Assembly: GCF_020217025.1 (NCBI RefSeq)
Contig: NZ_JAIWOF010000031.1
Span: 1 to 10,000, forward strand
Length of the DNA stretch: 10,000 nt
DNA from: Flavobacterium sp.
Lineage (GTDB): Bacteria; Bacteroidota; Bacteroidia; Flavobacteriales; Flavobacteriaceae
Reading direction: 5' to 3'
Each line of letters starts with the position of its first letter. Position 1 is the stretch's first letter. Below are positions 2,092-5,194 of the stretch, piece by piece. The notes under the pieces were generated by a model. The model ran no database searches. It saw only the letters and a program-made list of their open reading frames with translations, and had not been told where the DNA came from. Position numbers and translations under genes: made by a program.

Positions 2092-2149
2092 AAAAACGAC
2101 ACCGTTATGCGACTTCAATTTAATGAATTGTTAACAAAATATCGTTTTT
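2092..2149. repeat. Inverted repeat after the orphan hppD tail
   Basis: AAAAACGA (2092-2099) and TCGTTTTT (2142-2149) are perfect 8-bp arms separated by 42 nt. The interval holds a smaller hairpin, CAATT-TAATG-AATTG (2116-2130). Its position directly after the orphan hppD stop codon suggests the original hppD terminator, but the long loop makes it weak. It bears no resemblance to the hairpin following the live hppD. Confidence 0.3.
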
Positions 2150-2243
2150 ACAACGTACCTCGCAATTCTTGCTCACGCTCAATTGACTCAAAAAGGGCTT
2201 TAAAGTTACCTGCACCGAACCCACGAGCACCCATTCTTTGAAT
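2148..2243 (-). pseudogene. Orphan 3' end of hppD (last 31 codons plus stop)
   Basis: Read on the minus strand this encodes the same final 31 residues as the intact hppD (Ile357 to Leu387 then TAA), with no indel. It has no start codon and lacks everything upstream, including the metal-ligand Glu355, so it cannot make enzyme. It begins 5 nt after the stop codon of the 503-residue gene. Compared with 5097-5192 there are three substitutions (2151, 2157, 2217), each in a third codon position and each silent (Leu, Gly, Phe). It is continuous with the DNA leading to the sRNA, DUF3108 and kynA, so it is probably the original resident end of hppD, cut off by arrival of the two genes between the copies. 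Confidence 0.9.
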
Positions 2244-2245
2244 AA
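2148..2245. repeat. Direct repeat copy A (orphan hppD tail)
   Basis: About 98 bp with 95 identities to 5097-5194 in the same orientation, offset 2949 bp. Together with copy B it brackets the metallopeptidase gene and the 503-residue gene. Similarity stops sharply at the stop codon on one side and at codon 356-357 on the other. Confidence 0.95.
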
Positions 2246-2248
2246 AAT

Positions 2249-3760
2249 TTAAAAGTTAACTTTCTCTAATCTGATTTGGGATGGTTTATTTTTTGAATCA
2301 AAAAACTCTATAAGCATCATGTAACCTTTTTTTGCAGGGAAGGCCAAAATTGTGCTTACATCAGTTTTTAAATCAAGTTGCTGTTTATTAAAATTCTCAT
2401 TACTGTAGGAAACAATTCCAAATTTCGTATTCTGCTTTCTGTTTTTTGAGTTTTTTTCATTGTCACTAAAATAAAATAAAAACTCATCATCATCTAGATC
2501 TTGAAAATCGATATAATCAAATGCTCCAAACTCTTTAATTCTTCTTGAATGAGCTGCCGTTCCTGGAAATTTATTTCTAAATTTTTCAGAGATAAATACC
2601 TTATTGAAGGAAAAATTTTCAGAGATTTCTAAAAAATAAATATTATTAGTAGTTACAGGACTACCTTTAAAAGCCTCACAAACAGCAATTATTTTCCCAT
2701 TGCTCAATTGAATAAGGTCATGAACAAAAACAAAACCTTCTTTTTTTATTTCGCCATATTTATTTATCTCAATTTTTGATGACAACTCTGTCCAATTTAA
2801 AAATTTTTCTTCTAATTTCTTCCCTGTTTTAAGATTTAGTTTTATTTTGAAAAGACCGAGATTTTCTTCATCATTAATGAATCCGTAATCTGATTTCTTC
2901 GAGTAATTCCCTAACAATATCAAATCTTCATTCTCAATATAAGAATCTACTACTTTGTGAGAATATTTATCTTGATTTGAAAATAAAAATTCAAAATTTA
3001 ATTTACCTGTAATTGCATCAAAAACCATGATTGAATTAACGGGTTTATAATATCCTCCTTTGGTATAATGGTTAGAAAAAACTATATAATTATTTGAAGA
3101 GTCTAAAAACTCTAATTCCTTAAACCCATAATCATTTTTTGTTATCTCATAAGTTGTCTTCCATTTTTTTATAAAATTATCATCCAAACAAACTAAAAAT
3201 TTTTCTTTACCTGTTTGATCTTTCTCTTCTTTTATAGTTACTAAACCAACACCGTCAACTCCTATAATTTTATCTGTTTGATTTGCATCAAAATTTTTAA
3301 GGGATCTATCAAATTTGGGCTTGCTTTCTAATTTACCGTTTCTAAAAATAAATATATCACTCATCTTATTATTTGATAAATCTAAAGTTCTATATCTTCT
3401 AAATATTTTACCATTCACTGTATCATCATTCAACTCTATTAATAGCTTGTTATTATACAAAGTGACATCAGTAGTTATTTTATCTGCCTTTAGTAGAAGA
3501 GAACTATACTTCATTTCTTCTAAATAACCATTTGTAACTTTTGTTAAATTTTCATCTAAGACAACATACTCCAATATGTAAGTTTCTTTTTGAATTTTAT
3601 CAGATTCAAAAAGAAGAAAATAACCTTTTATATTATTTTTATCATCTTTTATTACATCAGAATCATATAATACTCCAGAGGACAATTTATTTAACTCAAC
3701 TATTTGAGCCGTTACAAATTGAGTAAAAACTAATAAAACACCTAATACTATTTTTTTCAT
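2249..3760 (-). CDS. Exported protein of unknown family, partner of M48 peptidase
   Basis: A 503-residue protein I do not recognise. Residues 1-19 ([19 protein letters not shown]) are a clear signal peptide with cleavage near A18/Q19; there is no lipobox and no other membrane segment. The rest is rich in Lys, Asn, Phe and Asp. Repeated strand-turn-strand units appear (around [25 protein letters not shown] and [10 protein letters not shown]), suggesting a beta-propeller-like fold; this is inference. The protein ends in V-N-F with no type IX sorting domain visible. Its ATG overlaps the TGA of the metallopeptidase gene (ATGA), so the two are translationally coupled and probably act together in the periplasm or at the surface. 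Base composition looks more AT-rich than hppD or kynA. It lies inside the repeat-flanked insert. Confidence 0.8.
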
Positions 3761-5034
3761 TTAAATTTTTGAATTAAAATTTCTATATCGCTACTTTTTA
3801 AATTATTCATTAAATTAATAAATATGTTCAAGCTTGCAGAATTGTAAACATAATCTATTTGAGGAACATGTTTTGAAAGTGTTTGATTTTCTTTTGCCTT
3901 TTGAATCTCAACTAAGTTTAAAAAAATTAAATCCTTATAAAAAACATCATTGTTGATTTTAAATTTTTTAAGCGATTCATATAAGCAAATTCCAAATTCT
4001 CCACTTAAATACAAATTATACAAATTTTGATAACTAACATTTTTCTTTATTTCAAAAAATCTTTCTGAAGAAGAACTTTTAAAATTTCGATTTGTAATGA
4101 ATTTTTCGATTTTTCTTATACGAGTTGAACAATCAGGATGAGTCTTTAGAGAATCAATTTGATAAGCTGGCTTATAATCATATTTATTAAATATTGATTT
4201 TTCAACTTCGAAATATTTATTTTTTAATTTAAATGATTCTGTTTCAAATAAAATTCTATAATCCTGTATTACTAGTGAATCTTTCTCATTGTTAGATTCA
4301 TCTAATTTCTTTAATAAACTTAAAGGGTTATTTAAATCTCTATTTGTTCTAGAATAAAATGAAAATCCTAATGAATCTGCTTGAATTTCTTTTTTTCTTC
4401 TTTGAGCGTAATTTTTATAATTTAATTTAAGTAAAAAAGTATTAGCTGCTCTAGTACGGTTATATTTTAATTTTTTTATTTCTTTTGTCTTATCAATAAT
4501 CTCTTCAGACGTGTGTAAACTCACAAAATTGTCAATTTCTTTTTTGACGTGTTGAAGTTCCTGATGACTTATTTCATGACACAAAACAAAAACCAATTCA
4601 TCCTCATTATCCAAAATAGTTAATAAACCATAATTAACTACGATAGTTCCATCACCACAATTATAAGCATTAATTTCAGGGTCTTTAGAAATTAAAATCT
4701 TATACTCCTTTTTATTTAATTTATTTATATCTAAAATCTCAAATATTAATTTTTGAAAATAATCGTTTAAATTTTTATCTGAAATAAAGGTATTATTGTA
4801 GATTTTTTCTAAAAATTCTTCCTGATATTCAAGATAAATCGCTTTAGACAACTTGGATTTTTCAACTGAATTTAAACTTAAATTTTTGTTAAATGTCGCA
4901 TATTTTGATTTATAAAATTCCAATAATTCAAATTTAAAAGAATCTGAATTACTTATATCTAATACTTCCTTTTTATCTTGAGCTAAAGAGCTATAAGTAA
5001 TGATAATAAAGAAAAATAAATTAAGAATTTTCAT
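3757..5034 (-). CDS. Exported M48-family zinc metallopeptidase
   Basis: Predicted gluzincin peptidase, 425 residues from the start chosen here. N-A-Y-N-C-G-D-G-T-I-V-V-N-Y-G-L-L precedes H-E-I-S-H (residues 153-157; two zinc-ligand His and the catalytic Glu), and E-I-Q-A-D (Glu216) supplies the third ligand, as in M48 enzymes. A later T-H-P-D-C-S-T-R-I matches the S/T-H-P-x-x-x-R-I element of the family. The C-terminal third is helical with no known domain. An ATG at 5064 would add 10 residues, but that codon lies in the -7 region of the predicted promoter; the ATG at 5034 opens a normal signal peptide (MKILNLFFFIIITYSSLAQ, cleavage near A18/Q19). I therefore use 5034. No lipobox, so soluble periplasmic or secreted. 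Coupled by ATGA to the next gene. Substrate unknown. Confidence 0.85.
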   Translation of the reverse strand: MKILNLFFFIIITYSSLAQDKKEVLDISNSDSFKFELLEFYKSKYATFNKNLSLNSVEKSKLSKAIYLEYQEEFLEKIYNNTFISDKNLNDYFQKLIFEILDINKLNKKEYKILISKDPEINAYNCGDGTIVVNYGLLTILDNEDELVFVLCHEISHQELQHVKKEIDNFVSLHTSEEIIDKTKEIKKLKYNRTRAANTFLLKLNYKNYAQRRKKEIQADSLGFSFYSRTNRDLNNPLSLLKKLDESNNEKDSLVIQDYRILFETESFKLKNKYFEVEKSIFNKYDYKPAYQIDSLKTHPDCSTRIRKIEKFITNRNFKSSSSERFFEIKKNVSYQNLYNLYLSGEFGICLYESLKKFKINNDVFYKDLIFLNLVEIQKAKENQTLSKHVPQIDYVYNSASLNIFINLMNNLKSSDIEILIQKFK

Positions 5035-5079
5035 AAAAAAGCTGTTTAGAAACAAAAATAACATTTATTTCTAAACAGC
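5035..5079 (-). terminator. Terminator hairpin after hppD
   Basis: Minus-strand arms GCTGTTTAGAAA (5079-5068) and TTTCTAAACAGC (5052-5041) form a perfect 12-bp stem with a 15-nt loop, followed at once by six T (5040-5035). It begins 17 nt after the hppD stop codon, the expected place for intrinsic termination of hmgA-hppD. The last T abuts the ATG of the peptidase gene, so the element would also lie at the very start of that gene's transcript if read through. Confidence 0.75.
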
Positions 5080-5082
5080 AAA
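5053..5082 (-). promoter_or_regulatory. Promoter of the M48 peptidase pair, inside the terminator
   Basis: TTTG (5082-5079), an 18-nt spacer and TATTTTTG (5060-5053) match the Bacteroidota consensus. The -7 box fills part of the hairpin loop and the -33 box touches the hairpin base. Predicted start is near 5048, leaving roughly 14 nt of leader before the ATG at 5034. This rules against translation from the ATG at 5064. Confidence 0.6.
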
Positions 5083-5096
5083 TTAATATTTAAGTT

Positions 5097-5194
5097 TTAT
5101 AACGTTCCTCGCAATTCTTGCTCACGCTCAATTGACTCAAAAAGGGCTTTAAAGTTACCTGCACCAAACCCACGAGCACCCATTCTTTGAATAA
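5097..5194. repeat. Direct repeat copy B (live hppD 3' end)
   Basis: The 3' end of the intact hppD, matching 2148-2245 at 95 of 98 positions. See copy A. The similarity does not continue past the stop codon, where this copy is followed by the 12-bp terminator hairpin and copy A by unrelated DNA. Confidence 0.95.

Follow-up and report, generated by a model that had tools for sequence, protein, structure and literature searches.

A 10,000-nucleotide stretch of Flavobacterium sp. (contig NZ_JAIWOF010000031.1, positions 1 to 10,000, assembly GCF_020217025.1), here referred to as the window, raises the question of how a pair of genes can come to lie directly behind an intact host gene with the end of that gene repeated on the far side of the pair. 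The host gene is hppD, encoding 4-hydroxyphenylpyruvate dioxygenase, and the pair consists of a gene for an M48 family metallopeptidase and a gene for a DUF6770 protein. The window belongs to a 2.53-Mb draft genome (238 contigs, 92.75% complete) that we label G000. Small strain-specific blocks of genes between core genes, without an integrase, are common, and the route by which they arrive is usually obscure. The cassette recurs and has no recognised recombinase; few of its footprints are as well preserved as the duplication in G000.

An insertion behind hppD

The hppD gene (5097-6260, minus strand) matches TIGR01263 with 439 bits against a cut-off of 277. The first-pass annotation of the window had reported for hppD a second, directly oriented copy of about its last 98 bp at a distance of 2949 bp, and this is what we find: positions 2146-2245 and 5095-5194 form a direct repeat that is identical at 97 of 100 sites with that spacing, and it is by far the longest repeat in the window, the runner-up being 42 nt at 71% identity. 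Within the strict 98 nt that end at the hppD stop codon, the live tail fused to the insert (5097-5194, minus strand) and the orphan tail (2148-2245, minus strand; profile match E 2.4e-29) differ at three sites, all synonymous, and both encode the same 31 residues plus the stop codon. The two genes described between the copies are M48 (3757-5034) and DUF6770 (2249-3760), both on the minus strand and overlapping by ATGA; a terminator-like hairpin followed by a T run (5041-5079, minus strand) lies near the start of the insert, and the orphan tail begins 3 nt past the DUF6770 stop codon. The break had been placed just past E355 (in LFFEIIQR), the presumed iron ligand of HppD, and this position fits the sequence.

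Relatives of G000 show what the site looks like without the pair. Of 60 genomes searched for hppD, 50 including G000 gave a match, and 29 other loci were compared. The cassette aligned to none of these 29, and in 28 of them hppD is followed at once by DNA that aligns to the window from the orphan tail onward, or from near it (L032 by the tail alone). Among the 30 genus loci whose tails scored highest, only G000 and G217 carry the cassette; DUF3108 is next behind hppD in 27 of the other 28, and G199 has neither DUF3108 nor M48. The near relative G333 has an empty site, its HppD protein being 100% identical to that of G000 and its hppD gene different at 14 of 1164 nt. The orphan tail thus adjoins native DNA (1860-2147, minus strand, with a conserved RNA-like gene, then DUF3108 and kynA) that is found directly behind hppD in relatives, and the live copy adjoins the insert, as first described. 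A duplicated arrangement in all relatives, which would have refuted the first-pass reading, did not occur. In close relatives hppD runs straight into the DNA that lies downstream of the orphan tail in G000; the M48-DUF6770 pair in G000 is a real insertion.

The second occurrence, in G217, lies on one contig, in the order hppD, a similar hairpin (folding at -18.7 kcal/mol), M48, DUF6770, hppD tail, native DUF3108 and kynA. Its M48 and DUF6770 proteins are 73% and about 78% identical to those of the window, and a single BLAST alignment (window 6277-2146, 79.7%) covers hppD, the cassette and the orphan tail to its last base. The junctions fall at matching places, with no more than about ten bases between the DUF6770 stop codon and the tail, which begins at the same hppD codons. 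These shared junctions argue that cassette and tail were inherited or transferred together, and they speak against an error of assembly; with both junctions common to G217, the tail may belong to the travelling unit and not be merely a stranded native remnant.

A cassette that recurs behind unrelated genes

The earlier finding was right, and the phenomenon is larger than it stated: the pair is a recurring cassette that also lies behind other genes, where tail duplications of this kind occur as well. Counting relatives at E 1e-20 or better, M48 was found at 39 places in 38 of 398 genus genomes, which were drawn from a larger group. We examined the window and 37 other places, leaving out G302, where the copy begins 66 bases from a contig end. 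In 35 of the 37, M48 has a DUF6770 relative as its same-strand neighbour. The host genes of the 38 cassettes, named by NCBIfam on one example each, are hppD (5), glyS (7), gcvP (9), a leuA/cimA-like synthase gene (4), a DAHP synthase/chorismate mutase gene (3) and others (10). Cassettes at hppD are those of G000, G217, G288, G087 and G350, the last assigned from 21 nt of the hppD end at a contig start. All 28 cassettes at named sites read in the direction of the host gene, and G217 carries two, at hppD and glyS. A possible further host gene, lepA, proposed as a fourth from G013 (antiparallel cassette, 22-bp match), was not confirmed, one of the two profile rows not being lepA.

Loci without the cassette were also compared at glyS and gcvP, for each of which 31 genomes were searched. 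In 12 of 17 glyS loci without a cassette the next gene is one found behind the cassette in an occupied genome, and in 13 of 18 gcvP loci the FabH-like gene that elsewhere follows the cassette is within about 650 bases of gcvP (one empty locus of each kind has under 300 bases of flank). No description of an M48-DUF6770 cassette was found in the literature on cis-mobilizable, integrase-free or gene-end insertions, judged by titles and abstract openings, and our literature search found no mention of DUF6770.

The form of the cassette varies in some genomes. The G350 contig (C225, L147, 3005 bases) is nearly exactly one cassette unit, beginning with the 21 nt of hppD mentioned above, and its ends may reflect an assembly break at a repeat. 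Up to three DUF6770-like genes stand in tandem behind M48 in L159, L165 and L167, at leuA-like and glyS sites, the extra copies being recognised by similar starts and lengths.

Host-gene tails behind the cassettes

Profiles of native tails were matched to the 500 nt behind DUF6770 at E below 0.05 (G350 offers only about 106 nt). The 3' end of the cassette's own host gene was found behind 7 of the 21 pairs at hppD, glyS and gcvP, against 0 of 93 mismatched combinations of cassette and host gene. These are G000 and G217 at hppD (2 of 5 cassettes), G014 and G186 at glyS (2 of 7), and G253, G420 and G161 at gcvP (3 of 9); the G161 tail is marginal by profile (E 0.024), and the gcvP terminator is repeated there as well, at 31 of 32 bases. 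The leuA-like and DAHP tail profiles, built from 4 and 3 rows, gave no match. Local alignment of the two flanks of each cassette scored at least 57 for G217, G014, G186, G420, G161 and G253, and different-site controls reached 37 at most; G100, whose row gave 54, 42 and 40, lies behind gcvP and so was set aside from the controls.

Two details of the tails hint at their history. In G014 the live glyS gene ends in other last codons (AKI) and the canonical end is kept in the orphan, which suggests that the live end came in with the insert. In G217 and G253 the two tails do not differ over their 3' 75-85 bp, and the orphan is decayed in its first ~25 bp, a pattern that suggests exchange between the tail copies, as recombination between them would produce.

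A different cargo is bracketed in the same manner in G420. On one contig (L171, reversed coordinates 26-8891) this genome has gcvP, a gene for an 875-aa protein, a gcvP tail with its terminator, the M48 pair and a third gcvP tail. The middle tail is identical to the live one in 106 of 130 columns, and the third is more decayed. The 875-aa protein has weak matches to STAND/NACHT-type NTPases and no PADLOC match at E 0.01. Since this STAND-like cargo is itself bracketed by gcvP tails, the tail arrangement is not tied to the M48 cargo, which suggests that the insertion route is used more widely.

Across the 398 genomes, 356 have an hppD tail match and 11 have two at E 1e-4. Linked orphans account for two of the 11 (G000 and G217); the second match is unlinked and decayed in G302, and the other eight are full-length paralogues and not orphan tails (G079, G121, G181, G272 and G396, at 51-55% identity, plus G129, G192 and G355). 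Two other candidates were rejected, the second tail of G043 being an overlap of two contig ends and that of G249 a decayed hppD gene, a remnant (L141 9387-9794) of which the 3' tail is the best conserved part. In G302 the decayed tail (L142 9940-10193) precedes a gene for a 519-aa protein, and the hppD contig ends inside the tail; this could be another cargo at hppD. No other linked element or cargo was found at the hppD end among the 356 genomes.

The encoded proteins and other features of the window

The M48 protein matches PF01435 with 73.3 bits (cut-off 20.3), has a signal-peptide-like start and keeps the HExxH motif and further site residues, H152, E153, H156 and E215 (alignment A1 numbering) being invariant in 32 aligned sequences. 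Its start is more likely at 5034 (MKIL..., 425 aa) than at 5064, because the G217 homologue starts there and 5064 falls in the loop of the 5041-5079 hairpin. The DUF6770 protein matches PF20559 with 127.8 bits against a gathering score of 27, and its model, built with 38 sequences, is mostly strand, with a mean predicted local distance difference test (pLDDT) score of 89.9. This predicted beta-propeller matches generic propellers, BamB among them (TMt 0.42-0.51). The cargo is thus probably a periplasmic protease with a propeller partner, and we would guess at a role in outer-membrane upkeep. The M48 protein resembles the envelope proteases BepA and LoiP in its domain but by score is a member of neither NCBIfam family (44 of 570 bits and 36.5 of 365 bits, respectively), and the DUF6770 model resembles the BamB propeller, its partnership with M48 being putative. 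A role in anti-phage defence finds no support in PADLOC, which gave no match for M48 and one weak match for DUF6770 (E 0.072).

The named genes of the window, patatin, hmgA, hppD, M48, DUF6770, DUF3108 and kynA, are all on the minus strand; hmgA and kynA match NCBIfam models but below their cut-offs. An unannotated, conserved RNA-like gene is seen at about 1910-2040 (minus strand), with a promoter motif, a near-invariant CATAATTTATAGTTTTTTGGTTGGTTAATAGCATAAAAAC and a terminator in 12 aligned relatives. The motif, TAccTTTG, is presumably a promoter motif of the Bacteroidetes type. Rfam returned nothing at the gathering score in the window, this gene included.

Possible routes of arrival

We tentatively favour, with confidence just short of even, a horizontally acquired M48-DUF6770 cassette that moves together with a duplicate of its host gene's 3' tail, its transfer presumably proceeding by homologous recombination with the tail as homology arm. 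Incoming DNA from a strain with the cassette behind hppD would pair with the recipient's hppD. If linear, it would cross over twice, once within hppD and once within the orphan tail; if circular and containing the tail, it would need a single crossover. Either way the product would be hppD, cassette, tail and native DNA in this order with hppD intact, and recombination between the tails would remove the cassette cleanly. The first union of cargo with the middle of a host gene at each new site would have to be an illegitimate join. Homologous recombination explains the position at gene ends, the intact host gene, the variable tail length, the fidelity to a site and the lack of a recombinase. 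It is further favoured by the empty sites of near relatives, the junctions common to G000 and G217, the host-gene tails behind 7 of 21 cassettes, the partly identical tails of G217 and G253, the clustering of cassettes by site on their tree and the purely synonymous differences between the two tails of G000. There is an experimental parallel in Escherichia coli, where partial lacZ duplication is reported in 56 of 60 clones after entry of a plasmid, 109-950 bp long in the 14 sequenced, which the authors read as a single crossover with a foreign circle (PMC3240628).

Comparison of G000 with G333 is consistent with import. Identity is 96-100% per block of up to 400 bp over 7200-5097 (the end of hmgA plus hppD, 2.1 kb), 82-90% to the left of this between 9200 and 7200 and 96-97% beyond 9200; to the right of the insert it is 90-94%, and 99% in the last 245 bases. 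The 7200-5097 segment has the appearance of a recombinant tract whose end coincides with the insertion. The first-pass annotation had named integrative elements and one-sided homologous imports as sources of such a layout; insertion as such is established, and the tract leans towards the latter.

Several points weigh against transfer by homologous recombination with the tail as arm. A homology of 98 bp is short for the process, and Flavobacterium johnsoniae is reported not to have been competent in the laboratory (PMC7965970). No vector was seen, DUF6770 being without a match in the plasmid, phage and viral collections searched. By profile, 14 of the 21 cassettes at hppD, glyS and gcvP have no tail, and with the lack of leuA-like and DAHP matches this means that the tail is not needed for persistence. 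The length and position of the tail behind DUF6770 also vary, glyS tails being 36 nt at once or 31 nt from +64 and a gcvP tail 119 nt from +30. As the orphan is G333-like too (2 of 98 differences), the tract may have included it and is no proof of which side came in. Finally, two stacked cargoes, as in G420, are also produced by gene-end integrases, which raises a little the rival in which an integrase acts in trans.

A bolder extension of homologous transfer is conceivable, and we think it unlikely though worth stating: a class of recombinase-free mobile cassettes, each equipped with a targeting arm (the tail of hppD, glyS or gcvP), that cycle by RecA alone, looping out as a circle when the two tails recombine and re-entering the empty sites of other strains with the metabolic or essential host gene left intact, a route that other cargo, such as the STAND-like NTPase gene at gcvP, would share.

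The main rival, itself unlikely in our estimate, is that the tails are the attL and attR sites of a recombinase, of the tyrosine or serine type, that has been lost or works in trans, and that the cassette is leftover cargo, as in cis-mobilizable elements (CIMEs), which are described as elements that lost their integration and transfer genes and kept their att sites (PMC5704250). Restoration of the 3' end of the target gene with displacement of the old end is the layout of gene-end integrases, the two cargoes in a row behind gcvP in G420, each followed by a gcvP tail, resemble accretion, and PF00589 proteins are present somewhere in all 37 genomes searched. However, the same cargo at at least five unrelated genes would need several recombinase specificities, no other cargo is seen at hppD among the 356 genomes with a tail match, and no core shared by the hppD, glyS and gcvP tails was noticed by eye. 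Among the integrase matches listed for the 37 genomes, the nearest on the same contig is 38 kb from a cassette (G405), many contigs being short. Nor was an integrase or transposase found in the window itself, in line with the claim made from its sequence: no such Pfam domain occurs in the seven genes scanned, a set that stops short of the partial genes at the ends. An insertion sequence or transposon is likewise not indicated, there being no transposase domain in the insert and no long inverted repeat at its ends among the 25 longest listed, and the flanking repeats are 31-119 nt of the host gene, as opposed to the short fixed target duplication of transposons.

Duplication in place, in which a break with staggered ends, close to the stop codon, was filled around a foreign fragment to leave a target duplication of about 100 bp, appears improbable. 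It would agree with the similarity of both tails to G333 and to each other (1 difference of 98 for live versus G333, 2 for orphan versus G333 and 3 for live versus orphan) relative to seven other relatives (5-15), and a variable length fits repair and not a transposase. On the other hand, both junctions are common to G217, all three differences between the tails are synonymous, and chance breaks hardly explain the same cargo repeatedly just behind stop codons.

We consider it equally improbable that the insertion is ancient and was passed down vertically, a few lineages retaining it and the others losing it cleanly by recombination between tails. The relevant tree, of joined M48 and DUF6770 proteins, has 34 rows (four of the 38 cassettes, with incomplete genes, were omitted) and long branches, its deep joins being unsure. 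On it the site label changes 7 times, as compared to 21.9 when shuffled, with 0 of 200 shuffles as low; the gcvP, leuA-like and DAHP groups each occupy one side of a branch, and hppD and glyS do not (2 changes each). That cassette clades mostly keep their site is as expected from descent, as are the correlation of cassette and host identities at the same site (Spearman 0.51, 37 pairs) and the synonymous divergence (dS) between G000 and G217, which at 1.5-1.7 for the cassette is not lower than that of the neighbours (1.1-1.9 or saturated). Against this, the 398 genomes yielded only five with the cassette at hppD, and those near relatives of G000 that were examined lack it, so that very many losses would be needed; the glyS DNA of G012 and G186 is 92.9% identical, but their cassettes at glyS only 68.4% in protein. 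By the tree, then, cassettes mostly keep their site, and the empty relatives and the G012/G186 mismatch indicate that they are also gained.

An assembly artefact or strain chimera, to which a 92.75%-complete draft in 238 contigs might be prone, is very improbable, given that the tail copies differ at three sites, that no long shared sequence exists at the junction of insert and tail to be misjoined, and that G217 has the same layout in one contig.

Significance and comparison with known systems

The same cargo behind unrelated core genes, with the footprint at three of them, makes recombinase-free gene acquisition directly testable, and genomes can be screened one after another for this footprint, the repetition of a gene's 3' end. 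The cassette also points to an uncharacterised, probably periplasmic, pair of protease and propeller.

Integrative elements in the 3' end of a protein gene are exemplified by e14 and phage 21 in icd. As in the window, the live end is replaced by a largely synonymous copy and the old end displaced to the far side; these elements differ in encoding their own integrase and in using one fixed gene. CIMEs are alike in having cargo between duplicated target-gene ends without integration or transfer genes, but here one cargo family is found at several unrelated genes, and neither an att core nor a partner recombinase was found. The single crossover reported at lacZ in E. coli (PMC3240628) is similar in combining foreign DNA with partial duplication of a homologous gene end and no site-specific recombinase; that case concerns an experimental plasmid, whereas in Flavobacterium a natural gene pair would have taken, as we infer, a comparable route into natural sites.

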